From: Massilia sp. 9I
GTDB lineage: Bacteria > Pseudomonadota > Gammaproteobacteria > Burkholderiales > Burkholderiaceae_D
DNA: 64,000 nt
Direction of reading: 5' to 3'
Assembly: GCF_902506415.1 (NCBI RefSeq)
Contig: NZ_LR733275.1
Location: 1,899,795-1,963,794, forward strand
The number at the start of each line of letters is the position of its first letter. The stretch's first letter is position 1. Both the position numbers and the translations under genes were made by a program. The notes under the pieces are model-generated. The model was not told the origin of the DNA. It worked only from the letters and a program-made list of their open reading frames with translations, and ran no database searches. Below are positions 2,811 through 56,204 of this stretch, piece after piece.

Positions 2811-4511
2811 TCAGTCGTGGGCGTAGATGTTGTTATCCTTGGTCTCGCGGATGAACAGGCCGCCGATGACGACGGTGATCAAGGCGATGATGATCGGATA
2901 CCAGAGGCCGTAGTAGATGTCGCCCTTGAGCGCCACCAGGGCGAAGGTGACGGTCGGCAGCATGCCGCCGAACCAGCCGTTACCGATGTGGTAGGGCAGG
3001 GACATCGAGGTGTAGCGGATCCGCGTCGGGAACATCTCGACCAGCATCGCCGCAATCGGGCCGTACACCATGGTCACGTAGAGCACGAGGATGAACAGCA
3101 GCAGCACCACCATCGGCTTGTTGATTGCGGCCGAATCAGCCTTGGCCGGATAGCCTGCGGTAGCCAGGGCGCCCGTCACCTGCTTCTTCATCGCATCTTC
3201 CTGGCCCTTCGACGCGGCGTCGAAGTTCAGTCCATCCGGCGTCATGACGGCATTGAAGGACTGGAAGGTGGTGTCGCCCACTTTCACCGAGGCCACCGTG
3301 CCGGCCGGGGCTTCCTGGATGGTGTAGCTCACCGAGGCAGCCGTCAGCATGCGGGTAGCGATGTCGCAGGACGACGGGAATTTCTTGGTGCCGGTCGGGT
3401 CCACCTGGAAGTGGCAGGTCGCCGGATCAGCCACCACCACCACCGGCGAGCTCTGGATCGCGCGCTCGAGCGCCGGGTTGCCATAGTGCGTGATCGCCTT
3501 GAAGATCGGGAAGTAGGTCGCCGCGGCGATAACGCAGCCGCCGAGGATGATCCACTTGCGGCCGATCCTGTCCGACAGCGAACCGAAGAAGATGAAGAAC
3601 GGGGTGGCCAGCAAGAGCGCGATCATCAGCAGGATGTTCGCGGTCGGTTCATCGATCTTGAGGGTCTTGGTCAGGAAGAACAGGGCGTAGAACTGGCCGG
3701 TGTACCAGACAACCGCCTGGCCCATGGTCAGGCCGACCAGGGCCAGGAAAGCGATCTTGGCGTTTTTCGGTTTCAGGAAGGCTTCCGACAGCGGCGCCTT
3801 CGAGGTCTTGCCCTCGGCCTTCATCTTGGCGAAGGCCGGCGACTCCGCCATCGACAGGCGAATCCACACCGAGATGCCGAGCAGGAGCACCGAGACCAGG
3901 AAGGGAATGCGCCAGCCCCAGGCCTGGAACTCGTCCTCGCCCATGGCGGTACGGGTGCCCAGAATCACCAGCAGCGACAGAAGCAGGCCGACAGTCGCCG
4001 TGGTCTGGATGTAGGAGGTGAACAGGCCGCGTTTGCCGTGCGGCGCGTGCTCGGCCACGTACGTGGCGGCGCCGCCATACTCGCCGCCGAGCGCCAGGCC
4101 CTGCAGGATGCGCAGCGACACCAGGATGATCGGCGCCGCGATGCCGATCGACGCGTGGCTGGGGAGCAGGCCGACCAGGAAGGTCGAGGCGCCCATGATC
4201 AGGATCGTCACCAGGAAGGTGTATTTGCGGCCGATCATGTCGCCGAGGCGGCCGAACACCAGCGCGCCGAACGGACGCACGATGAAGCCGGCGGCGAAGG
4301 CCATCAGGGCGAAGATGAAGGTGGTGGTGGGGTCGCCGATGAAGAACTGCTTGGCGATGATGGAAGCGAGCGAGCCGTAGAGGTAGAAGTCATACCACTC
4401 GAACACCGTGCCGAGGGAAGAAGCGAAAATGACTTTCCGCTCTTCCTTGGTGATTCCGGCGGAGGAAGATGAAGCGCTCCCTCCAGCGGTCATGCCGGGT
4501 GTGATTGCCAT
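2811..4511 (-). CDS. MHS-family MFS transporter (metabolite:H+ symporter) with large extracytoplasmic insert
   Basis: 566 residues with the metabolite:H+ symporter signatures: FEWYDFYLYG (about 37-46), GRLGDMIGRKYT in the first cytoplasmic loop, LGGEYGGAATYVAEH and SDRIGRK. About 12 membrane segments are visible. Family members move organic acids, proline/betaine or similar solutes with protons; the substrate here is unknown. Between segments equivalent to TM9 and TM10 there is an extra soluble stretch at about 341-466 with two cysteines (366 and 382), where many relatives have a short loop. It is divergent from the thiolase gene across a 279-bp gap. Confidence 0.9.
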   Translation of the reverse strand: MAITPGMTAGGSASSSSAGITKEERKVIFASSLGTVFEWYDFYLYGSLASIIAKQFFIGDPTTTFIFALMAFAAGFIVRPFGALVFGRLGDMIGRKYTFLVTILIMGASTFLVGLLPSHASIGIAAPIILVSLRILQGLALGGEYGGAATYVAEHAPHGKRGLFTSYIQTTATVGLLLSLLVILGTRTAMGEDEFQAWGWRIPFLVSVLLLGISVWIRLSMAESPAFAKMKAEGKTSKAPLSEAFLKPKNAKIAFLALVGLTMGQAVVWYTGQFYALFFLTKTLKIDEPTANILLMIALLLATPFFIFFGSLSDRIGRKWIILGGCVIAAATYFPIFKAITHYGNPALERAIQSSPVVVVADPATCHFQVDPTGTKKFPSSCDIATRMLTAASVSYTIQEAPAGTVASVKVGDTTFQSFNAVMTPDGLNFDAASKGQEDAMKKQVTGALATAGYPAKADSAAINKPMVVLLLFILVLYVTMVYGPIAAMLVEMFPTRIRYTSMSLPYHIGNGWFGGMLPTVTFALVALKGDIYYGLWYPIIIALITVVIGGLFIRETKDNNIYAHD

Positions 4512-17645: not shown

Positions 17646-18560
17646 ATGCTGAACGAACGCGAAATCGAAAGCTGCTACCTGGGGCAGTTCATTCCAGTGC
17701 ACTACCATCACAACATGCTGATGGACCAGAACCGGATGCACAGCTTCAAGTCTGCCATCCATTACGCTGTCAAGCCGGGCGCCAAGGTGCTGGAACTGGG
17801 CGGCGGCACCGGGGTGCTGTCCTTCTTTGCGGCTCAGCAGGCTGCAAAGGTCTACTGCGTCGAGTTCAATCCCGACATGGTGCGCGAGGCGCGCAAGTTC
17901 CTGGCGATCAACCAGAACGGCCACAAGGTCGAGGTGATCCACGCCGACGCCTTCGATTACCTGCCGCCCGAGCCGGTGGACGTCGTCATCTGCGAGATGA
18001 TCCACGTCGCCATGCTGCGCGAGAAGCAGGTCGAAGTGATCGAATCCTTCAAGCGCCGCTACCTGGCCAAGTTCGGCGGTCCGCTGCCGATCTTCCTGCC
18101 GGAAGCGGTGATCATGGCGGCCCAGCCGATCGAGCAGGAATACGATTTCGAAGGCTTCCACGCGCCGATCGTGCAATTCCAGGAAACCGGCGTGGTCTAT
18201 CCGGGCACCGTCGAGCTGGGCCAGCCGGCCGTGTACAGCCTGATCGACTTCAGCCAGCCGGTCGACAGCATCTTCGCCTGGGAAGGCGGGATCGTGGCGG
18301 AGAAGAGCGGTACGCTCAATGCCATGCGTTTCATTACCAAGAACGTGCTGGCCATCGTCCAGGAAGAATCGAATACGATCGACTGGCTCAATCACTACAT
18401 GACCCTGCCCCTGGCCGAGCCGGTGAAGGTGCAGGCGGGTGACCTGGTGCACGTGGCCTTCCAGTACCGCGCCGGCGGGTCGATCCCGTCGCTGCAGGCC
18501 TCGCTGCGGGCGCAGGTGGTGAACCAGCGCGTGACGGAGCAGGTCGCGGCCTTCGCGTAA
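17646..18560 (+). CDS. Class I SAM-dependent methyltransferase, PRMT-like
   Basis: 304 residues. The SAM-binding motif I is VLELGGGTGVLSFFAA, followed by VYCVEFNPDMV and the acidic CEMIHVAML segment. The last is reminiscent of the double-E region of protein arginine methyltransferases (SEMIGY-type), as is the beta-barrel-like C-terminal half. It may methylate a protein or a small molecule. It stands alone with a 116-bp leader after the ankyrin gene. The arginine methyltransferase idea is inference from general layout. Confidence 0.75.
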   Translation: MLNEREIESCYLGQFIPVHYHHNMLMDQNRMHSFKSAIHYAVKPGAKVLELGGGTGVLSFFAAQQAAKVYCVEFNPDMVREARKFLAINQNGHKVEVIHADAFDYLPPEPVDVVICEMIHVAMLREKQVEVIESFKRRYLAKFGGPLPIFLPEAVIMAAQPIEQEYDFEGFHAPIVQFQETGVVYPGTVELGQPAVYSLIDFSQPVDSIFAWEGGIVAEKSGTLNAMRFITKNVLAIVQEESNTIDWLNHYMTLPLAEPVKVQAGDLVHVAFQYRAGGSIPSLQASLRAQVVNQRVTEQVAAFA

Positions 18561-29882: not shown

Positions 29883-31769
29883 TTAACGCGCGAGTTCCGG
29901 CGTCCCGGCTGCCTTGACCGCCGCGCCGCGGTCCGGCGCCACGAAGGCCAGGCCTTCCTCGAAGGAGCGCAGGATCATGTCGACATAGGCCTCGACCAGC
30001 GCCCGCTTCGGCAACTGCTCGTCATAGGGCAGCAGCACCGTGACCATCAGGGCCTCCGGCAGGTCCTGCCGCAGTTCCGCCACCGCGGCGCGCCAGGCGT
30101 CGAAGTTGTCCTGGCGCGGATAGGTGATGAAGACGGTCGAAACCAGCTCCGGGGTGCTGCCTTCCGGGCGCTCCAGCTCGGCGCCGACCACCAGGCTGCG
30201 CGCGTCGACGTCGCCTTCGCGCAGCGCGCGCACCAGGAGTTCGGTCAGGAATTCGTCGCGCTCCGACGGCAGGCCGGCGCACAGCACGATCGAACCGAGC
30301 GGCACGTCGAGCGATCCCTGCCAGCGGCCGAAGCGCGCTTCGCGCATCTGGCGCAGGTGGGCGCCGATGTTCGCGTCCAGCAGCGGCACCGGTTTGCGCC
30401 GGTTGCGCACGCTGCCGCTCGATGCCGAAGCGACCGTCTCCGCGATGTTGGCGATCACGGCGCGCATGCGCGCCTCCTGCGCCTTGTCGATGGTGCCCGT
30501 GCCCAGGTCCGACACCGCCATGCGCAGGCCGGGCAGCAGCACGTGGTCGCAGTAGCGCGCGAAGCTGTAGCGGCGCACGTAGGTGCGCGCATCCTTGGTC
30601 AGTTCATCGGCTTCGCCCGCCAGCACGCGCTGGTGGAAGCGCTCGGCGTCTGACATATCGGGGGCGTCGCCCAGCAGGATCGTGATCGGCGCCAGCGCGC
30701 GCACGTGGCGGCCCGCCACCACCAGGCACAGGGTCAGTGGCGTGGACAGCAGCAGGCCGACCGGGCCCCACAGCGCGCCCCAGAACAGGGCCGAGACGAT
30801 CACCGCCAGCGGCGACAGGCCCGAACTGTGGCCGTAGACCTTGGGCTCGATGAAGTTTGCCAGCACCAGTTCGAAAGCGAGGAACATCGCCATGCAGGTG
30901 ACGGCCAGCGACCAGCCGGGATCGATGGCGGCTACGAACACGGCGATGATCGCGCCGGCCAGCAGCACGCCCAGGTAGGGCACGAAGCGCAGCGCCCCGC
31001 TCAGGACGCCCCACAGTACCGCGTGGGGCACCCCGGCCAGCCATAGCGACACACCCATCACTGCCCCGAAGGTCGCGTTGACGATGAACTGCGAGAAGAA
31101 GAAGCGCGACACGCCCTGGGCGGCGTCGCCCAGGGTGCGGATGGTGCGGCTCACTTCGGCCTGGCCGGCCAGGCGCACCAGGCGGTCGCGCAGCGAGCCT
31201 TGTTCAAGCAGGATGAAGACCAGCAGGATCAGCACCACGCCGGCTTCGCCGATCGGTCCCCACACCAGGTTGATCACGCGTCCCAGCGTGTCCTTCATGG
31301 TGCGCGGCGTGCGCACTTCCACCGGCAGCGGCTGGTTCGGATTGACCACCAGGTTGCCGCGCCTCACGCGCGCCGCCTCCGCCGCCGTGACGGGCGATAC
31401 CGCGCTCAGTTCCGCCTCGATGCGGCTGATCGGGCGCTCCACCAGTTCACGCACCTTGGCCACCTTGGTCTTGATCGCGGCCCGATACTGCGGCAGGTCG
31501 CGCGTGATCGTCACCAGCTGGTCGAACAGCACCGCGCCGACCCCGCCCACGCAGGTGGCAACCAGGGCCACCGACAGCAGCACTGCCGGCATGCGCGCCA
31601 GGCCGATCCGGGTCATGCTGCGCACCAGCGGCGCCAGGACCAGGCTCAGGATCAGCGCGAGAGCCAGCGGCTCGAGCACTTCACGACCGAAATACAGCAG
31701 GGCGACGACGCAGGTGGCGCTGACGACGGTGCTTGCCGTCAGGCGCAGGGAAGGGGGCTGGAGATTCAT
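29883..31769 (-). CDS. AI-2E family permease with an additional C-terminal domain
   Basis: 628 residues from ATG 31769. An upstream in-frame TTG at 31835 is rejected. The first about 360 residues are an eight-helix AI-2E/PerM-type membrane domain (FGAVMGVSLWLAGVPHAVLWG, GPVGLLLSTPLTLCLVV). About 270 soluble residues follow, absent in ordinary family members of 350-400 residues. They include GSIVLCAGLPSERDEFLTELLVRALREG and VFITYPRQDNFDAW, an alternating beta/alpha pattern that loosely recalls a B12-binding or Rossmann-like fold. Transported solute unknown. Similar long forms occur in related bacteria. Confidence 0.8.
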   Translation of the reverse strand: MNLQPPSLRLTASTVVSATCVVALLYFGREVLEPLALALILSLVLAPLVRSMTRIGLARMPAVLLSVALVATCVGGVGAVLFDQLVTITRDLPQYRAAIKTKVAKVRELVERPISRIEAELSAVSPVTAAEAARVRRGNLVVNPNQPLPVEVRTPRTMKDTLGRVINLVWGPIGEAGVVLILLVFILLEQGSLRDRLVRLAGQAEVSRTIRTLGDAAQGVSRFFFSQFIVNATFGAVMGVSLWLAGVPHAVLWGVLSGALRFVPYLGVLLAGAIIAVFVAAIDPGWSLAVTCMAMFLAFELVLANFIEPKVYGHSSGLSPLAVIVSALFWGALWGPVGLLLSTPLTLCLVVAGRHVRALAPITILLGDAPDMSDAERFHQRVLAGEADELTKDARTYVRRYSFARYCDHVLLPGLRMAVSDLGTGTIDKAQEARMRAVIANIAETVASASSGSVRNRRKPVPLLDANIGAHLRQMREARFGRWQGSLDVPLGSIVLCAGLPSERDEFLTELLVRALREGDVDARSLVVGAELERPEGSTPELVSTVFITYPRQDNFDAWRAAVAELRQDLPEALMVTVLLPYDEQLPKRALVEAYVDMILRSFEEGLAFVAPDRGAAVKAAGTPELAR

Positions 31770-46244: not shown

Positions 46245-46630
46245 GACTCTTCCTTTCGAAAAGCGACAGCAATCCACTACGGGGACGCCATTCTGGCACG
46301 GTAAAAACGATGTATGTGTAGGCGCACATCCCGAACCGCACAAGGACACGCAAATACCTTGTACTGGCGCCGCGTGTTCAATGTCTTCGCGGGAAGAAGC
46401 GCACTGCAGGCTATTTGAATAGGTGGACTAATAAAGAAAAAAAATCGAACACTGCCCTTGTTATCGGACGGCTTGCGTTCACTGTGAATGAATGCTTTCG
46501 CGGTGGGCCGACGCTCACGCGCCGGCACATACGACTGTGGGCCTTCCCGCGGTTTCACCAACAACTGCCAGGAGATGCCGCGTCCTGTCGTGCGGGGCAG
46601 GTGCGTCCTGGGAGATCACAGGAGCAGATT
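46245..46630. other. Intergenic region between divergent chimera and fdhA
   Basis: 386 bp without a convincing gene. It is the shared upstream region of the leftward chimera and the rightward dehydrogenase. An AT-rich stretch at about 46425-46455 (including a run of A) is the likeliest promoter zone. The fdhA ribosome-binding site is ACAGGAGCAG just before 46631. No clear operator or hairpin is seen. Confidence 0.5.
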
Positions 46631-47779
<1,149 letters not shown>

Positions 47780-47912
47780 TGGAGCAGGGCGCTCATCCGC
47801 AAGGAGGGCCCGCGTCCTGAGGACGAACGTGCCGCCATCGCTGGTGTCCAACTTTTTGCGCCCCATGGCGGCCGATGCGGGAGCGCGAAGACAATCTTGA
47901 CAGGAGGCTTTT

Positions 47913-49097
47913 ATGCTAGCAACTAACTATCGTGGACCATACCGTATCCGCGCTTCCCAGAAGCCGGATCCCGTGATCGAGCACCCGGGCGACGCCATCG
48001 TCCGCGTGACACGCGCCTGCATCTGCGGCTCGGACCTGCACCTGTACCACGGCCTGGTGCCCGATACCCGCATCGGGCACACCTTCGGACATGAGTTCGT
48101 TGGTATCGTGGAAGAGGTCGGATCGGCCGTCGAGACGCTCAAGCCGGGCGACCGTGTGCTGGTACCGTTCAACCTATTCTGCGGCAACTGCTTCTTCTGC
48201 CAGAAAGAGTTGTACAGCAACTGCCACAACACCAATCCGGAAGCGACGGCGGTGGGCGGCATCTACGGTTACTCGCACACGACCGGCGGCTACGACGGCG
48301 GCCAGGCCGAGTATGTGCGCGTCCCGATGGCCGACGTGGGACCATACAAGATCCCTGAAGACATCGTGGATGACGACGCGGTGCTGCTGACGGACGCGCT
48401 GCCGACCGGCTACCAGGCTGCGGAGATGGGCGACATCCAGCAAGGCGACACCGTGGTCGTGTTCGGCGCTGGCCCGGTGGGCATTTTCGCCGCCAGATCC
48501 GCCTGGCTGTTCGGCGCCGGCCGCGTGATCGTGGTCGACCATGTCGACTACCGGCTCGACTTCGTGCGGCGTTACGCTCCCTGCGAAATCATCAATTTCC
48601 GCGAAGTGAGCGACGTGGCCCTGCACATCAAGAAGATGACCGACTGGCTCGGCGCGGACGTGTGCATCGATGCTGTCGGCTGCGAAGCCTCGGGCAGCCT
48701 GACCCAGACCCTCACCGGGCGCTGGACCATGCTGCAGGCGGGCGCCGCGACCGCGCTGTTCTGGGCCATCAACTCGGTGCGCAAGGGCGGCAACGTGTCG
48801 ATCGTCGGCGTCTACGGGCCGACCTTCAACGCGGTCCCCATCGGCAACGCGCTGAACAAGGGCCTCACGATGCGCATGAACCAGGCCAGCGTCAAGCGCC
48901 ATGTGCCGCACCTGATCGAGCACATCCGCCAGGGGCACCTGAACCCGAAAGAAATCATCACCCACCGGGTGCCGCTGGAGGAGGTGTCGGACGCGTACCA
49001 CATCTTCTCGAGCAAGTATGACAACTGTATTAAAACCGTGCTGATTCCTCCACGCGCAGGCTCGGCGCGCGCGACGGCGACCAGCGTCATCCATTGA
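47913..49097 (+). CDS. Zinc-dependent alcohol dehydrogenase
   Basis: 394 residues. Ligands Cys38, His60 and Glu61 form the catalytic zinc site; Cys90, 93, 96 and 104 the structural one. Cofactor motif GAGPVGIFAAR. It is a paralogue of the preceding FdhA-type enzyme and closer in the C-terminal half to the dehydrogenase part of the chimera at 45441-46244 (GGNVSIVGVYG, NKGLTMRMNQA). ACAGGAGGC is a strong ribosome-binding site. Substrate unknown; aldehyde or polyol oxidation is likely. Confidence 0.9.
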   Translation: MLATNYRGPYRIRASQKPDPVIEHPGDAIVRVTRACICGSDLHLYHGLVPDTRIGHTFGHEFVGIVEEVGSAVETLKPGDRVLVPFNLFCGNCFFCQKELYSNCHNTNPEATAVGGIYGYSHTTGGYDGGQAEYVRVPMADVGPYKIPEDIVDDDAVLLTDALPTGYQAAEMGDIQQGDTVVVFGAGPVGIFAARSAWLFGAGRVIVVDHVDYRLDFVRRYAPCEIINFREVSDVALHIKKMTDWLGADVCIDAVGCEASGSLTQTLTGRWTMLQAGAATALFWAINSVRKGGNVSIVGVYGPTFNAVPIGNALNKGLTMRMNQASVKRHVPHLIEHIRQGHLNPKEIITHRVPLEEVSDAYHIFSSKYDNCIKTVLIPPRAGSARATATSVIH

Positions 49098-49107
49098 AGG
49101 AGCAGCC

Positions 49108-49698
49108 ATGGACACAGAAATCGCCAAGCGCGACCTTGCCGAGCAGCGGCGCGACCCGCACCACCACGGCCACGTCGGCTACGAAAGGCAGATGGACTAC
49201 GACCTGAACCGGCATAGTCCACCCGTCGAACAGCTTCAGCGCATCCCGGGCTGGGGTTCGGATCTCGACAAGAAGAACCGGCCGGCTGTGCCGATGGAAC
49301 GCACCCCGCCGCGCTTCATCCACGTGCCGCAGGGACAGCCGGTGCAGCAGGCGCAGACCGTCGAAGTGTTTTGTTCGCCTGAACGGCCCGGCATCACGCC
49401 GATCTTCGGCACGGCGGAGCCGCCCAAGTGGCTGTCCGGCGCCATCCGGCGCCTCGCGTACAAGCTGCCCGAGAACGACATTCGCCACTGGCTGATGCTG
49501 ATTGCCGCGGACCGCGTCAACATGGTCGAGGGCGTCGTCGAGGACCTGGCGCACGGCCACGTACCCAACGTGCTCGGGGAGATGGGCATCCGCTCCGAGC
49601 TGCGCTACAACCCGGCCGGCCTGGTACGCAAGGCCCTCATTGCCACGGTAGTCGTAGGCGGCATCATGGCCCTGCGCAACCGCCGCAGGCGCTACTGA
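49108..49698 (+). CDS. Conserved hypothetical protein, C-terminal membrane anchor
   Basis: 196 residues. The N-terminal half is polar with HHHGH and Pro-rich segments. The middle (PPKWLSGAIRRLAYKLPENDIRHWLMLIAADRVNMVEGVVED) is helical. The C-terminus is one membrane helix (about 172-188) followed by RNRRRRY. It starts 10 bp after the dehydrogenase stop with AAGGAGCAGCC, so it is in the same operon. Function not recognised. Confidence 0.75.
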   Translation: MDTEIAKRDLAEQRRDPHHHGHVGYERQMDYDLNRHSPPVEQLQRIPGWGSDLDKKNRPAVPMERTPPRFIHVPQGQPVQQAQTVEVFCSPERPGITPIFGTAEPPKWLSGAIRRLAYKLPENDIRHWLMLIAADRVNMVEGVVEDLAHGHVPNVLGEMGIRSELRYNPAGLVRKALIATVVVGGIMALRNRRRRY

Positions 49699-49763
49699 AC
49701 CACAACGCCCGGCCCGCCGGGCGCATCTCCCCATCCACAATTCTTTTCGCCCGGAGGCAGACC

Positions 49764-50912
49764 ATGAGCCCGGATAGTGTCCAACCCACGCACGGTGCGA
49801 TGGCCGGCGCCGCGCACGACCAGGAAGTGCCGGAAGTCGACTTGCTTAGCCCCTTAACGCTGCGAAGTCTGACCGTGCGCAACCGCATCGCCATGGCGCC
49901 GATGTGCCAGTATTCAGCCGAAGAAGGCATGGCCAATGACTGGCATCTGGTGCACCTGGGCAGCCGCGCCGTGGGCGGCGCCGGACTCGTGATTGTCGAG
50001 GCGACCGGCGTCACCTGGGACGGCCGCATCACCCCGGGCGACCTCGGCATCTGGAGCGACGATCACATCGAAGCTCTGGCCCGCATCGCCCGCTTCGTGA
50101 ACAGCCAGGGCGCGATAGCGGGCATCCAGCTCGCGCACGCCGGGCGCAAGGCCAGCACCGCCGCGCCATGGACAGGCGGCGAGACCTTGAAGACCGAGGA
50201 GGAGGGCGGTTGGCCGGTCGTCGCGCCAAGCGCGATTCCGTTCCATCCGAACGATCCGGCACCGATCGCCCTCACCGAAGCCGGCATCGACGGCATCGTC
50301 GACGCGTTCGAAGCAGCCGCGCGGCGCGCGCTGGCGGCCGGCTTCAAGGTCCTGGAGATCCACGCCGCGCATGGCTACCTGCTCCACCAGTTCCTGTCTC
50401 CGCAGAGTAACCAGCGGGAGGATCAGTACGGCGGCAGCCTGGAGAACCGGATGCGCTTCACGCTGCGCGTGACCGAGCGCTTGCGGGCAATCGTTCCCGC
50501 CGAGCTGCCGCTGTTCGTGCGCATATCCGCCACTGACTGGGTTGCCGGCGGCTGGGACATCGAGCAGTCGGTCGAACTGTCGCGACGCCTGAAGGACCTC
50601 GGCGTCGATCTGATCGACGTGTCAACCGGCGGCAATCTGCCGACCGCTCGCATTCCCGTCGCCAAGCGCTACCAGGTGCCATGCAGCCGCCGCATCCGTG
50701 ACGATGCCGGCATCCTGACCGGTACGGTGGGGCTGATCACGGATCCGAAAGAGGCCGACGAGATCGTCACCGGTGGCGACGCCGACCTTGTGCTGGTCGG
50801 GCGCGAACTGCTGCGCGAGCCGTACTGGGCGCTGAAGGCCCAGCATGCGTTCGAGGAGGAGCCGGATTGGCCGGTGCAATATGGCTATGCCGTCAAGCGG
50901 CGCGCGAAATGA
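49764..50912 (+). CDS. NADH:flavin oxidoreductase / Old Yellow Enzyme (YqjM-like)
   Basis: 382 residues with the FMN-binding OYE barrel: NRIAMAPMCQYSAEEG, IQLAHAGRKAS, the catalytic pair in EIHAAHGYLLHQFLSPQSNQR, and LVGRELLREPYW. This is the thermophilic-like YqjM class with the MCQYS flavin-site cysteine. It reduces electrophilic enones and related compounds. With the AKR and alcohol dehydrogenases it suggests a reactive-carbonyl detoxification island. CCGGAGGC precedes ATG 49764. Confidence 0.93.
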   Translation: MSPDSVQPTHGAMAGAAHDQEVPEVDLLSPLTLRSLTVRNRIAMAPMCQYSAEEGMANDWHLVHLGSRAVGGAGLVIVEATGVTWDGRITPGDLGIWSDDHIEALARIARFVNSQGAIAGIQLAHAGRKASTAAPWTGGETLKTEEEGGWPVVAPSAIPFHPNDPAPIALTEAGIDGIVDAFEAAARRALAAGFKVLEIHAAHGYLLHQFLSPQSNQREDQYGGSLENRMRFTLRVTERLRAIVPAELPLFVRISATDWVAGGWDIEQSVELSRRLKDLGVDLIDVSTGGNLPTARIPVAKRYQVPCSRRIRDDAGILTGTVGLITDPKEADEIVTGGDADLVLVGRELLREPYWALKAQHAFEEEPDWPVQYGYAVKRRAK

Positions 50913-50991
50913 CTGTGCAGTGAATCATCCGACATCCGCGCGGCCCTAGCACGGACCAAGGTAGCGCAACCACTACCGCAGACCGCTAGGA

Positions 50992-51825
50992 ATGTGCCTT
51001 GCTACTAGCCACAGCGTCTCGTCCAGGTATGAGGTGCTGCAAGTGCTTCATGCGAAAATGAATCCTTTGGGAATGCCGCGGCACGCAAGTCGCGACCTAA
51101 ACTGGAGCCTTTTCGTGCTGAATGAAGCTGTGGCAGAAGTACTGGAGATGTTGCATCAGAAGCGCGAAGCACCGAGCGAGTTACTTGAAACGGGCTTCGA
51201 AAGGAGAGTGAGGAAGCTCAGCAAAGGTTTGTGCATATTTTCCGTTTCCTGTTTTCCTGTAATGGGATTTGCTGGATGGTGCGTCGTGCAAAGCCAGCAC
51301 CCATCGAGGGAATTATTCATTTTGGTGCAATACATCGGCTTGATGCAGATCCTTTTGGCCTTGTCGTGGATGTTCGTAGACACCGTGCCGGTGGCGGTCA
51401 GTGTAATGCGGTTTGACACCTATGCGTATCAGCGTCGGAAGCGTGAGATCGAATACGATCTGGGGCATCTTGAGGGACTGGTAGGGTTTGATCCGGCTAT
51501 CCTCAAACTGACGGATAAATGGCTCGCATTGAAGATCGAACGAATGAAGATGCGAATCGGGAACTATCTGGGTGGGTCGGATAAGGTGGCAGTGTTCGCG
51601 CTTGTCAGTGCGGGATGGACCGTCTGGAAGAATTTTCCTCAATCGAGCTTGTCATGGCAAGGCCAAGCGTACTTGCTTGGATTAGCGATGCTCGTTGGCT
51701 TGGCAACAGGCGGCATGCTCGTGAACCGTGCTATCAGGCTGCTGACATATCAGCGGGATCTATTGGCGCTGGCCATGCTGAAAAGGCAGGAGTTTCAATG
51801 GCCGACCGGGACGGTGTCGAGCTAG
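50992..51825 (+). CDS. Hypothetical membrane protein beside dif, lower GC than neighbours
   Basis: Up to 277 residues. Possible starts are ATG 50992, ATG 51058 and GTG 51115; the last has GGAG 7 bp upstream and begins VLNEAVAEVLEML. Four membrane segments appear in two pairs (about 80-125 and 198-245). Between them is a charged region (YQRRKREIEYDLGHLEGLVGFD). The base composition looks near 50 percent GC, clearly below the flanking genes, and codon use is mixed. No family recognised. It ends 25 bp before the dif site, a place where foreign DNA often collects. Confidence 0.65.
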   Translation: MCLATSHSVSSRYEVLQVLHAKMNPLGMPRHASRDLNWSLFVLNEAVAEVLEMLHQKREAPSELLETGFERRVRKLSKGLCIFSVSCFPVMGFAGWCVVQSQHPSRELFILVQYIGLMQILLALSWMFVDTVPVAVSVMRFDTYAYQRRKREIEYDLGHLEGLVGFDPAILKLTDKWLALKIERMKMRIGNYLGGSDKVAVFALVSAGWTVWKNFPQSSLSWQGQAYLLGLAMLVGLATGGMLVNRAIRLLTYQRDLLALAMLKRQEFQWPTGTVSS

Positions 51826-51850
51826 CGGGCACAGATAGGAAATCGTCCAA

Positions 51851-51878
51851 TGTACGCATAATCTATATTATGTTAAAT
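51851..51878 (+). other. dif: dif site (XerCD recombination site, chromosome terminus)
   Basis: The 28 bases match the E. coli dif core at 25 positions. The right (XerD) arm TTATGTTAAAT is identical. The left (XerC) arm TGTACGCATAA differs at two positions. The centre is TCTATA in place of TGTATA. XerC and XerD resolve chromosome dimers here at cell division under FtsK control. The site lies in a 191-bp gap between the hypothetical membrane gene and the phosphatase gene. The dif match was made from memory of the E. coli sequence. Confidence 0.9.
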
Positions 51879-52016
51879 GCGCTATCTGTAGATGAACGCC
51901 TTTAGGGCCTGCTGCAGGGATCGGCTTCTCACCGGCTCCAATCCTAGGCCCCTGTCCAGCGCGGCCGATGCGGCATTGTCCCCGGGTGCACGTTCTTTTG
52001 CTCTGTGTGGGCTGAT

Positions 52017-52871
52017 CTAGGCGCGCCACAGGATCGCCGACGCATCGTCTGCCCGCTTGACGGACTTCGACGCCGTGGCCTGCACCGCCTCAAACGCGCG
52101 CAGCTCGTCCAGCGCTTCCTGCAAGCCTCGCTCGACGCACAGCGCGAACAGGCTCTCCGGCGTGTGCAGCCCGTAGGTGTCGACCAGCCGGTAAAAGCCG
52201 TCCGTCATTGCGAGCACGGCAGAACCTGCCGGCGCATTAAACGCAAACGTACGCGCGCCAAACGGCCCGTTTGGGCGCAGGCACAGGGAGTTCGTGTCGA
52301 CCGTCGTGTTCTGGAATTCGCGCCGTGCGCGCAGCATCGGGAGCAAGCGCGCCTGCCTGGCGACCGGATCGCTGACGGCTTCGGCCTGCAGCCTGGCGAT
52401 TTCAGCGCGCAGAATGCCTTCCTGCGGATTCACGAAGGGATCGAGGTCGTGGACCTTGCCGTCCGGCGTGCGCATCAGCGCCTTGCAGTCGCCCAGGCAG
52501 TACAGCTCGAGCCGGCTGCCTTGTCCCACCTTGCTTGCGCGGATCCACGTCAAGGCCGCAATCGGCCACGCGTACACGGGCACGTCCTGGCCGGCGCTGC
52601 GCGCCTGGAATGCGGCGTACACGGATTCGACCGCCGCATGCACCGCGCTCTGCTGGTCCAGACCAGCATCGATGCGCGCGCCGAGCGCCGCAGCAAAGCT
52701 GGTGACGAACCAGACCACGTCGCCGTTCTCCGGATCGATGTAATCGCGGTCGGCGACCGAGGTGCCGCCGTCGATGATGACGAGGTCAAGGCGCTCGGGC
52801 GCCTGGAAGCTTCCTGCCCAGTCTTCGTTGTGATGCGGCTTTGCGCCGGATGAAACAAGCTCGATCTGCAT
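52017..52871 (-). CDS. PP2C-family serine/threonine phosphatase-like protein
   Basis: 284 residues from ATG 52871 (alternative ATG 52877). Metal-binding positions are NED at 15-17, DGG at 34-36, LAMTDGFYR, and the terminal ADDAS (275-276), which fits a reduced PP2C fold. It would remove phosphate from Ser/Thr residues. No kinase gene is nearby, so its target is unknown. A long inverted repeat lies about 80 bp upstream. Confidence 0.75.
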   Translation of the reverse strand: MQIELVSSGAKPHHNEDWAGSFQAPERLDLVIIDGGTSVADRDYIDPENGDVVWFVTSFAAALGARIDAGLDQQSAVHAAVESVYAAFQARSAGQDVPVYAWPIAALTWIRASKVGQGSRLELYCLGDCKALMRTPDGKVHDLDPFVNPQEGILRAEIARLQAEAVSDPVARQARLLPMLRARREFQNTTVDTNSLCLRPNGPFGARTFAFNAPAGSAVLAMTDGFYRLVDTYGLHTPESLFALCVERGLQEALDELRAFEAVQATASKSVKRADDASAILWRA

Positions 52872-52953
52872 GAACATTCTTCCAAACGATACGTTCGTGA
52901 CCACTGACCCCTTCGGAAGCCGAATTCCCATCCAAAGACTCAGTTTGAAGTGA

Positions 52954-52982
52954 ACTCGACATTATATATGCTAATGTCGAGT
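52954..52982. promoter_or_regulatory. Perfect 11-bp inverted repeat upstream of phosphatase gene
   Basis: ACTCGACATTA (52954-52964) and TAATGTCGAGT (52972-52982) are exact inverted copies around a 7-base TATATGC centre. It is upstream of the leftward phosphatase gene and about 150 bp before the rightward membrane glycosyltransferase-like gene. It could be an operator or an RNA hairpin. The rest of the 52872-53129 gap shows no gene. Confidence 0.55.
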
Positions 52983-53129: not shown

Positions 53130-54641
53130 ATGCAGCGCTTTCTGCCCGCCCGGCCCGCTGGCCGCGTCGCACTGTTCATTGTCCTGCTGTCGCTCGCGAC
53201 CCTGCTGTTGACCCGCCCTTCGAAGAGCGGCGACTTCCAGGAGTACGCGCTGATGACGATCGCCCTCGCCAGCCACGCGACACCCGATCTCCGCCTGTCC
53301 GACGTCGACACCGCCTCTCGCCTCTCGCCCGAGCCAGGTTTCGAACTGATACACGACCAGCTCCGCGTCGGCATGCGCCAAGCTGCCGAATATCCCTTCC
53401 CGGGCTTCGTGCGCGGCCACGATGGCAGCTATTACGCGATCCACTTCTTTGCCTATCCTGCCCTGGCGGCGATTCCCTTCAAGCTGATCGACGCTGCCGG
53501 CGGCAAGCCGTTCAAGGCATTCCAGCTGCTGAATCTCGGCGCCCTCGCCCTGCTGACAATTGCCCTGTACCGTTTCACCGGCACGCCGCGGCGCGCGATC
53601 TTCGGCACCGTGTTCTTCCTGCTGTCGGGCGGCCTGCTGTATGCGAACTGGGGCAGCCCGGAATTCTTCAGCGCCTGCGCGCTGTTGTCCGGCCTTTTCT
53701 TTGTGCTGGCCGGCAGTCCGTATGCTGGCGCCCTATTGGCCAGCGTCGCCGCGATGCAGAATCCGCCGCTGGTCGCCTTCGGACTGTTCGCGCCGCTGAT
53801 CCGGCTCACGTACGTCCATGCGCAGGAAAACCTGTCGTGGGCCGCGGCGTGGCGCAAGGTCGTCACGCGCCACACAGTGCTGGCCTCGATACTGCTGGTG
53901 GCGCTTGCCGCGCTGCCGGTCATGTTCAACCTGGCGAAGTTCGGCGTACCGAGTGTGATCGCGGTGCTGTCGACCGATCGCTCCCTGATGACGCTCGGAC
54001 GGCTCGTGTCCTTTTTCTTCGACCTGAACCAGGGCGCCATCGTGGGCCTCCCGGTGGCGATGCTGCTGGTGCTGGCCCAGCTGGCGGCGCAGGACCGTCT
54101 GCGCTGGCTGCCGCACCTGCTCGTGGCCATCCTGTTCAGCGTAGCGATGGCGATCCCCACGCTGTCGACGGTCAACTGGAATTCGGGCGCCTCCGGCATG
54201 ATGCGCTACGCCCTCTGGGGCGGCATGCCGCTGCTTTACCTGGGTTTGGTCTACCTGCAGCGCCTGCCGCGTTGGCCGCCCGCGCTGGTGGCCGCCATCC
54301 TGCTGGCACAGGCCGGCGCCATGACGTTCGCGCGCAGCTATGACTACCTCGAGTTCAGCCCGGCCGCGCGATTCATGCTGGCGCGCTTCCCTGCCCTTTA
54401 CGCGCCCGAGCCGGAAATCTTCATCGAGCGGACCTTGCACCAGGACGGCGCCGTCCACGCCGACGTGGTGGCGCCCTATCCATCGCCGCAGCATCCGGTG
54501 AAAATCCTGTTCAAGGCCGATAGCCGGACGGCGCATACTAGCCTGTGTGGCGCGGGAGGCCAGGTCAGGATTGAGCATGCGACTGGCGGCTGGGTCTACC
54601 TCGATGGTCCGCCTGCCTGCCTCCCGGGCGCGCACGACTGA
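53130..54641 (+). CDS. Polytopic GT-C-like membrane protein
   Basis: 503 residues with about ten to twelve membrane helices. After the first helix an acidic motif, SGDFQEY (Asp35, Glu38), sits where GT-C glycosyltransferases hold their catalytic acid. The C-terminal about 90 residues are soluble (HVKILFKADSR-like region). GT-C enzymes move sugars from lipid carriers outside the membrane. No sugar-polymer genes are adjacent, so the role is open. Confidence 0.65.
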   Translation: MQRFLPARPAGRVALFIVLLSLATLLLTRPSKSGDFQEYALMTIALASHATPDLRLSDVDTASRLSPEPGFELIHDQLRVGMRQAAEYPFPGFVRGHDGSYYAIHFFAYPALAAIPFKLIDAAGGKPFKAFQLLNLGALALLTIALYRFTGTPRRAIFGTVFFLLSGGLLYANWGSPEFFSACALLSGLFFVLAGSPYAGALLASVAAMQNPPLVAFGLFAPLIRLTYVHAQENLSWAAAWRKVVTRHTVLASILLVALAALPVMFNLAKFGVPSVIAVLSTDRSLMTLGRLVSFFFDLNQGAIVGLPVAMLLVLAQLAAQDRLRWLPHLLVAILFSVAMAIPTLSTVNWNSGASGMMRYALWGGMPLLYLGLVYLQRLPRWPPALVAAILLAQAGAMTFARSYDYLEFSPAARFMLARFPALYAPEPEIFIERTLHQDGAVHADVVAPYPSPQHPVKILFKADSRTAHTSLCGAGGQVRIEHATGGWVYLDGPPACLPGAHD

Positions 54642-54716: not shown

Positions 54717-54995
54717 ATGGGCATCACCGTGAAGAACACGACACCGGACACGGCCAAGGTCACCCTGGTGGGCGAAATGATGGACGGGAAGTTCGACGCC
54801 AAGGTCATGGCGGAGACCGACGTCCCGTACACGAAGTACTGGGACAACGAACTCGAGCAACGCATCATTTACCTGAATCCTGACCCGGAACAGCTCACGT
54901 CGATCGTCGCAGCGCTGAACGATGGCCGCCTGTCGCTGGACGCCTTGCAGGAATTCGGCAGCTCGGACGGCGGCACCTCCGAACTGCCGATCTGA
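54717..54995 (+). CDS. Small hypothetical protein (92 aa)
   Basis: 92 residues starting MGITVKNTTPDTAKVTLVGE, soluble and acidic, with no signal peptide. AAAGGAAGAGC precedes the ATG. No family recognised. It is followed closely by the convergent recombinase gene. Confidence 0.6.
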   Translation: MGITVKNTTPDTAKVTLVGEMMDGKFDAKVMAETDVPYTKYWDNELEQRIIYLNPDPEQLTSIVAALNDGRLSLDALQEFGSSDGGTSELPI

Positions 54996-55010: not shown

Positions 55011-56171
55011 TCAAGGCAGCAGATCCTTCTTCGAGCCTACGATTTCGTCGTGGCGTTCGTGGTCCTGCTTGTGCAGGTAGCCCGCCGTCGTCGCGATGTT
55101 CGCATGGCCGGCGGTGTCCTGCAGGGTCTTGAGCTGCACTCCGCTGTTGGCGTGGTTGGTCAGCATGCTGTGGCGCAGCCAGTGGGTCGAGGCCTGGCGC
55201 AATGCCGCGGCGCTGTCGCCATCGCCCTGCGCTTCGGCGCGGTCGGCCGCTGCCACGAACACCGCTTTCAGCGCTTCCGACGCCGCTTCGTCCGTAATGC
55301 GCACCGCTTCCTTGCTGCGGCTCGAGAGCACGAGCGGCGTGCGGTCGGCGCGGCTGGCCTGCGGCAGCAGCCCGAAAGCCTGGCGATAGTCGCGGTAGGC
55401 GGCCAGCATCGCCGGCGGCACCGGCAGGCGGCGCGGCTTGGCGCCCTTCCCCATCACGTCCAGCCACCAGCGGCCGTCGCCCTCGTCGTAGATGGCGCCC
55501 ATGCTGGCACCCACGATCTCGTTGAGGCGCGCCCCGGTCTGGGCAAAGGCGATCAGCAGGAAGCGGTCGCGTTCGCGCTGGCGGATCGCCGCCGGGGTAT
55601 CGGCCGCGCGGTTCGACACTGCATCGAGCGCGTGTGCAATCGCCTGCGGCGTGAGGTAGCGCGAGATGCGTTTGGCCTGGTTCGCGCGCACATTGCGCAC
55701 CAGGCGCGCCGGGTTGCGCCGCAGGTAGCCGGTCTGCTCCGCGTAGCCGAGCAGGCCCTTCACCGCGATCATGGCCTGGCGCCGGCTGGCGTCGGACAAG
55801 GGCCCCGAAAATGGCCGGTAGCGCGGATCGTTGCGCGGCCATTTGGTGGTCGAGATCCATTCCGGCGGCGGATTGCGGATGAATTCCTTGTAGGCGTTCA
55901 GGTCGGCGACCGTCAGCTGCTGGAAAGTCTTGCGCGCCTCTTCCCGGCACCAGGTCAGGAAACGGTACAGCTCCTTCTGGGTGTTGGCGACCGATTTCGG
56001 ACTCAGTTCACCCTGGCCGATGTACTCGCGCGCCAGTTCGGCGTCGCTTTTCGCGTCCGTGACCGGCTCGTCGTTCACCCTGCGGAAAACCGCGCCGCGC
56101 GCGCTCGCAGCCAGCCGCTGCGGCGAATCTTCCGGCAGCGGGTCGAGGTCGATCGGGATGAAGGTCGGCAT
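55011..56171 (-). CDS. Tyrosine recombinase / integrase, LexA-box controlled
   Basis: 386 residues. A SAM-like core-binding domain spans about 45-160 (NTQKELYRFLTWCREE). The catalytic domain has Arg215 (TGARLNEI), Lys in GKGAKPR (242-245), His330 and Arg333 (HWLRHSM), His356 (GHANIATT) and nucleophile Tyr365. All residues of the RKHRHY set are present, so it should cut and rejoin DNA. It is longer than XerC/XerD (about 300). No phage, transposon or excisionase gene is adjacent. A canonical SOS box sits 11 bp upstream of the start and the dif site is about 3.1 kb away. ATG 56171 is used; a longer frame runs through the box. Confidence 0.9.
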   Translation of the reverse strand: MPTFIPIDLDPLPEDSPQRLAASARGAVFRRVNDEPVTDAKSDAELAREYIGQGELSPKSVANTQKELYRFLTWCREEARKTFQQLTVADLNAYKEFIRNPPPEWISTTKWPRNDPRYRPFSGPLSDASRRQAMIAVKGLLGYAEQTGYLRRNPARLVRNVRANQAKRISRYLTPQAIAHALDAVSNRAADTPAAIRQRERDRFLLIAFAQTGARLNEIVGASMGAIYDEGDGRWWLDVMGKGAKPRRLPVPPAMLAAYRDYRQAFGLLPQASRADRTPLVLSSRSKEAVRITDEAASEALKAVFVAAADRAEAQGDGDSAAALRQASTHWLRHSMLTNHANSGVQLKTLQDTAGHANIATTAGYLHKQDHERHDEIVGSKKDLLP

Positions 56172-56182
56172 GTTGCTTTCTG

Positions 56183-56204
56183 ATACTGTGTTTTTATACA
56201 GTAT
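56183..56204 (-). promoter_or_regulatory. LexA (SOS) box upstream of tyrosine recombinase
   Basis: ATACTGT (56183-56189), eight bases, then ACAGTAT (56198-56204) form a perfect 7-bp inverted repeat. It matches the beta/gammaproteobacterial LexA consensus CTGT-N8-ACAG and the longer TACTG-N10-CAGTA. It lies directly before the recombinase start on the minus strand and 75 bp before the divergent DUF411 gene, so it most likely represses the recombinase. Confidence 0.85.

Follow-up and report, generated by a model that had tools for sequence, protein, structure and literature searches.

The question raised by this locus is whether the 28 bp at positions 51851 to 51878 (plus strand) of the window, the whole analysed stretch of 64,000 nucleotides of Massilia sp. 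9I (C7:1,899,795-1,963,794), are the dif site of the chromosome, and whether dif is the only recombination site of its terminus. The sequence, TGTACGCATAATCTATATTATGTTAAAT, is located at C7 1,951,645 between a plus-strand 277-aa open reading frame (ORF; 50992-51825), which ends 25 bp before it and has no match in Pfam, NCBIfam, or PHROGs, and a minus-strand gene for a PP2C-like protein (52017-52931) scoring below the Pfam cut-off. Two 11-bp inverted arms and a 6-bp centre were recognized on the plus strand, namely, the XerC-side arm TGTACGCATAA (51851-51861), the central hexamer TCTATA (51862-51867), and the XerD-side arm TTATGTTAAAT (51868-51878), with boundaries that follow the known architecture of dif. 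Against E. coli dif, the reference for the mismatch counts, the agreement at 25 of 28 positions claimed by the first-pass annotation was confirmed, with mismatches at positions 1, 4, and 13, and the XerD-side arm was identical to the reference arm. Its judgement that such a match would hardly arise by chance held as well. At ≤3 mismatches, the 64 kb contained this match only, the runner-up 28-mer had 9 mismatches over 26 compared positions, and 0 of 100 dinucleotide shuffles of the window reached ≤3 mismatches, so that a chance origin was ruled out.

Across the 9 contigs of the genome (5.53 Mb; 5,533,669 bases), the core pattern was found once at ≤3 mismatches, as had been expected of one copy per chromosome, and a reversed control pattern was absent from the same contigs at the same threshold. 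All 62 genomes of the genus carried a site at ≤3 mismatches from CATAATNTATATTATGTTAAAT, and in the wider family 255 of 294 genomes matched a slightly looser dif pattern. A second, weaker dif-like site distant from its dif was observed in one relative, G197 (L246, C1:4,601,564).

The proposal that the site resolves dimers and marks the junction of the two replichores was supported by its single copy, its presence in 62 of 62 genus genomes, a switch in KOPS orientation, a skew peak, and the genes for XerC, XerD, and FtsK-gamma. Orientation was scored with GGGNAGGG, words that function as KOPS in E. coli. Left of dif, the sampled part of C7:1,713,795-2,220,000 contained 27 plus-strand and 3 minus-strand KOPS-like words, compared to 2 plus-strand and 20 minus-strand ones right of it (Fisher p 2.7e-9). 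Within the window, the last plus-strand word left of dif was located at 31748-31755 and the first minus-strand word right of it at 53394-53401, with further minus-strand words at 54389, 55444, and 60111; the minus-strand word occurred left of dif too, at 18403 and 46997. The same words serve as KOPS in V. cholerae according to PMC5357621. The best bracket for the switch (1,931,542-1,946,791) ended at least 4.9 kb left of dif, which counts against the dif reading. A GC-skew turn had been predicted near 51.85 kb; a cumulative peak was indeed present, but at 1,970,439, 18.8 kb right of dif. In PMC2731167, the median distance from dif to the skew peak is 7,277 bp, with 21,445 as the third quartile. 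The site lies at the junction of both signals, with skew in single samples being noisy and, taken alone, weak evidence here. In relative G180, 53 plus-strand and 8 minus-strand KOPS-like motifs were counted in the 400 kb left of its dif.

On the scale of the scaffold, KOPS polarity and synteny with G180 both flipped at the N-gaps C7:1,713,719-1,713,794 and near 5,292,379-5,292,478, where the genome's one complete 16S gene adjoins the second gap. DNA right of the first gap was collinear between G180 and the genome under study, and the DNA preceding it in G180 matched 5.30-5.44 Mb here in the opposite orientation. Provided that the contig ends join, about 1.93 Mb of the scaffold appears reversed relative to G180; as the block has a gap at each end, joining during assembly is a more likely cause than a true inversion. 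The two arms between dif (1,951,645) and dnaA (3,729,798) measure 1.78 and 3.73 Mb, and they remain unequal when the block is flipped.

The machinery expected for dif is encoded in the genome. Six integrase-family matches were found, namely, XerD at C7:4,304,908 (362.4 bits, NCBIfam cut-off 329.6), XerC at C7:3,128,308 (348.3 bits, cut-off 335.15), a gene inside the window, and three others, and FtsK_gamma was matched at C7:227,498 (E 1.5e-28). FtsK, steered by the strand-biased GGGNAGGG, would bring two dif copies together at the septum and activate XerD, whereupon XerD and XerC would exchange strands within TCTATA and turn a chromosome dimer into monomers. Taken together, these analyses make 51851-51878 almost certainly an ordinary chromosomal dif that resolves dimers via XerCD and FtsK by the established mechanism, and its position is a useful annotation.

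That the 28 bp serve a Xer-dependent element for attachment, in place of being the dif of the chromosome itself, is very improbable. In favour of such an element, PMC2731167 reports mobile ORFs next to about a quarter of dif sites. Integration of a Xer-dependent element requires two flanking dif-like sites, however, and was rejected as one site only was found in the genome and the window. Further, a PHROG match was absent in four of five neighbouring ORFs, and one or more of ten window genes recurred in the dif regions of 15 of 19 relatives, in every case on the XerD side. The left flank (about 46600-51830) comprises two zinc alcohol dehydrogenase-like ORFs (assigned by eye), an old-yellow-enzyme-type oxidoreductase, and the 277-aa orphan, and these genes were unmatched left of dif in the 20-kb regions of the 19 relatives. 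In one relative, an old-yellow-enzyme-type oxidoreductase was located on the opposite side of dif. Searches of the window for Rfam families and tRNA genes returned no matches.

The suggestion that TCTATA is a departure from the usual hexamer that matters for strand exchange was not supported. TCTATA is held by 58 of 62 genus genomes, and position 13 is the most variable of the dif centre according to PMC2731167, so the hexamer is ordinary, and its reading as unusual was rejected. The other hexamers in the genus were TTCATA (G113), TTTATA (G166 and G168), and TTTGTA (G195), and the exact 22-mer with TCTATA occurred in at least 119 stretches of the genome collection. A connection between the dif hexamer and the further recombinase gene described below was also considered, as another hexamer was present in 3 of 6 genus genomes without the gene versus 1 of 56 with it (Fisher p 0.002). 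It was set aside because lineage may explain it and, among the matches listed, TTTATA or TTTGTA is likewise seen in genera that have the recombinase.

Beside the XerD-side arm, a conserved extension, GCGCTATCTGTA (51879-51890, plus strand), was recognized from 50 genus sites, in which the 12 bases right of the arm trend to RCGMTATNTGTA, with T at position 33 in 39 of 50 and at position 35 in 41 of 50. The preference for TAT was weaker in 65 sites of other organisms. Six genus genomes have no recombinase gene; five of these were read, and the extension was retained in one.

What is new at this terminus is a second site and its probable recombinase, while dif itself is ordinary. The putative second recombination site, ACTCGACATTA-TATATGC-TAATGTCGAGT (52954-52982, plus strand), has perfect 11-bp inverted arms around a 7-bp centre (11-7-11) and is located 1,077 bp from dif, between the PP2C-like gene, which starts 22 bp away, and the next ORF. 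The palindrome was first seen upstream of the recombinase gene in nine copies. Its pattern had 0 matches in 100 shuffles of the window, shuffled arms gave 0.01 matches on average in 124 kb, and one copy only was present in 1.25 Mb sampled from the same genome.

The dif regions of all 62 genus genomes were read, and 55 (36 + 19) had the second site. It was present in 55 of 56 genomes with the recombinase and in none of the 6 others (Fisher p 1.1e-7, with no correction for kinship); the six may share ancestry. The genomes without the site were exactly the six recombinase-less ones (G145, G113, G154, G168, G185, and G195) and G148, in which the recombinase is on another contig and the site was absent from the 12 kb to the right and the 2 kb to the left of dif. 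The scanned stretches covered 10-12 kb on the XerD side where the contig allowed (4.3 kb right in G113) and, in 24 of the 62 genomes, 2 kb or less left of dif. At ≤3 mismatches in 20 arm bases, each positive region had a single site, which was always located on the XerD side, at a distance of 662-4,559 bp from dif. Among 58 second sites, the arms were nearly invariant, the eleventh arm base (A before the centre, T after it) was the same in 58 of 58, and 30 different centres were found. Inverted arms of about 11 bp with a centre of 6-8 bp, the arms conserved and the centre freely varying, are the features of a tyrosine recombinase core site, and both were observed. Conserved arms, a variable centre of fixed length, one copy by dif, and co-occurrence with the recombinase are together the look expected of its recombination site.

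Outside the genus, the site was present in 3 of 3 genomes, from two other genera, with a recombinase at least 71% identical (G003, 75%; G111 and G138, 71-72%). These arms were absent near dif in eight genomes, also from two other genera, whose recombinase is 53-60% identical, and 0 of 7 family genomes without a recombinase match had the second site near dif. A scan of 2.18 Mb of other DNA gave nine more sites, all about 1.1 kb or less from dif on the XerD side of Massilia-type loci, and the pattern was absent from the loci of other organisms in that DNA; of 12 Massilia-type loci, the three without the site extend no more than about 1 kb beyond dif on the XerD side. In the viral collection, one contig (L333, 88 kb) carries the arm pattern at 2359-2385. 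Phage matches to the palindrome covered <80% of the query.

Dyads of fixed length with variable spacers are typical of operators, and the palindrome precedes the PP2C-like gene in the window and the recombinase gene in nine genomes. It could therefore be read as an operator or a terminus-binding-protein site, with dif alone mattering and the recombinase an unrelated neighbour by synteny. The linkage control described below, a gene about as dif-linked as the recombinase, agrees with this explanation. The co-occurrence of site and recombinase speaks against it. So does the presence of the site in 17 of 19 relatives' 20-kb regions, compared to 7 of 19 for the PP2C-like gene, by which the site is independent of that gene. 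In addition, where the recombinase gene is 27-116 kb away (G018, G177, G150, G188, G197, and G180), the second site is still 0.7-2.8 kb from dif. On balance, the operator explanation is unlikely.

The candidate enzyme for the second site is a further tyrosine recombinase, neither XerC nor XerD, encoded at 55011-56171 on the minus strand, with a probable ATG at 56171 (386 aa) in an open frame extending to 56228. It matched Phage_integrase (E 7.8e-17), scored 80.8 and 66.9 bits on the XerC and XerD models (cut-offs 335 and 330), and had a generic integrase as its best PHROG. Matches to solved structures covered only 41-45 residues (XerD, a XerC-like protein, and one chain labelled RaiA). In 30 copies, 185 of 405 positions were invariant, including R234, K261, H349, R352, H375, and Y384 (counted from 56228), to which we assign the roles of the R-K-H-R-H-Y catalytic set. 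In the 25 closest pairs, dN/dS was 0.06-0.17 (near 0.1), and by these sequence comparisons the gene is under purifying selection. In-frame stops were present in four genus copies (G150, G146, G187, and G156).

The recombinase was found in 56 of 62 genus genomes, in a single copy each at E 1e-60, on the contig of dif in 52 and on another contig in four. All 52 same-contig copies were located on the XerD side and transcribed towards dif. The distance from dif to the matched part of the gene was 61-70 bp in seven genomes and 3,135 bp in the window, and reached 116 kb. As a linkage control, the gene for a conserved 92-aa protein (54717-54995, plus strand) was used, which was on the dif contig in 52 of 60 carriers, 46 on the XerD side and 43 within 30 kb. 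Within 30 kb of dif, there were 48 of 52 recombinase copies versus 43 of 52 control genes, and since the recombinase is hardly more closely linked than the control, there is nothing special about the proximity of the gene itself to dif.

Outside the genus, 28 genomes had a recombinase match of at least 53% identity. Thirteen of these were among the dif matches listed, with the gene on the dif contig in 11, 75 bp to 53 kb away, always transcribed towards dif; the XerD side carried 7 of these copies and the opposite side 4. In G096 and G071, it was on a contig other than that of dif. In eight genomes, dif, the gene, the SOS box, and the second site form a compact set within about 1.3 kb, as they do in G003. 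In a tree of 29 of the 30 copies, with outgroups on long branches, G003, from another genus, branched before the other carriers, and the compact layout needed at least 2 changes.

Before the recombinase gene, a LexA/SOS-type box, TACTGTATAAAAACACAGTA, was recognized at 56184-56203 on the minus strand, for which 0.02 matches would be expected at ≤2 mismatches. CTGT-N8-ACAG was found shortly before the start in 30 of 30 copies read (29 from the genus and G003 from another), out of forty stretches, nine of which did not contain the gene and one of which (L266) was missed by the search word. A weight matrix built from sixteen boxes was run over 1.25 Mb sampled from the same genome. It ranked the window box first, a circular result, and next the box before the LexA gene, so that the motif at the recombinase promoter was also present at lexA. 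Among its 12 matches were sites upstream of genes for a Y-family polymerase and a UvrD-type helicase and of a Cas2-like ORF, and the rest were located before other ORFs or on the opposite strand of the same boxes. Judged from these motifs, LexA probably represses the recombinase gene.

The SOS box could be the usual damage control of an integrase, and an old mobile element that came to rest next to dif could have left recombinase and site behind as its integrase and attachment site, its other parts having been lost. The generic-integrase PHROG agrees with such an origin, and the family is common on plasmids (1687 records, all <60% identity); in three plasmid relatives that were examined, the recombinase adjoins parA/parB or is one gene away. 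Similar palindromes, with 1-2 mismatches in 20 arm bases, were observed on plasmids of M. putida, M. forsythiae, and M. litorea (L290, L291, and L292, at about 4003-4029), two of them within 1.8 kb of a 26-28% identical recombinase. Each region has one site and no pair flanking an element, however, and the gene is maintained as a single copy under purifying selection, which makes a mere remnant somewhat unlikely. Plasmids may nevertheless be the source of recombinase and site, given the relatives beside parAB and the similar arms on Massilia plasmids.

The reading preferred here is a terminus with two sites, dif and a putative second recombination system probably under SOS control, for which we put the probability at about 0.68 from comparative sequence data. 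The recombinase of 55011-56171 would bind and recombine 52954-52982, and that this site is its substrate is probable. The LexA box at its promoter would lead to damage-induced expression, and the second system would offer another way, induced by damage, of resolving dimers or unlinking termini at times when recombinational repair produces many of them. This role is the likeliest because only one copy of the second site was present in the sampled DNA and its position beside dif is maintained; dimer resolution as its job has slightly less than an even chance. More tentatively, Massilia and near genera may use a plasmid-type, SOS-induced lone recombinase on an 11-7-11 site as a second chromosome-resolution system, which would either resolve dimers and unlink termini after damage or let Massilia plasmids carrying the arms use the chromosomal enzyme. 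In the titles and abstract openings examined from the open-licence literature, no such second SOS-linked system was named. If the two-site reading is true, these bacteria have, in addition to XerCD, a pathway of chromosome unlinking that is induced by damage. The second site and its probable recombinase are a small, directly testable pair of parts.

Among known systems, Cre/lox consists of a single tyrosine recombinase acting on a symmetric site. The window system resembles it, and the plasmid relatives beside parAB, in its single tyrosine recombinase, and differs from both in being chromosomal, next to dif, and conserved in the genus. With the proteobacterial dif/XerCD/FtsK system, as described in PMC2731167 and PMC3025954, the window's dif shares the 28 bp, the 11-bp arms and 6-bp centre, the single copy, the skew and KOPS junction, XerC, XerD, and FtsK-gamma, and is essentially no different; the second site differs from that system in its arms, its 7-bp centre, and its putative recombinase. 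The xerS-difSL and xerH-difH systems, described in PMC2731167 and PMC5357621, likewise have one recombinase near one inverted-arm site at the terminus, comparable to the seven genus genomes in which the gene is 61-70 bp from dif. In contrast to those systems, which replace XerCD and of which the first type is the sole Xer system of its chromosome, here XerC, XerD, and a classical dif coexist with a further recombinase that has different arms at its putative site and a LexA box before its gene.
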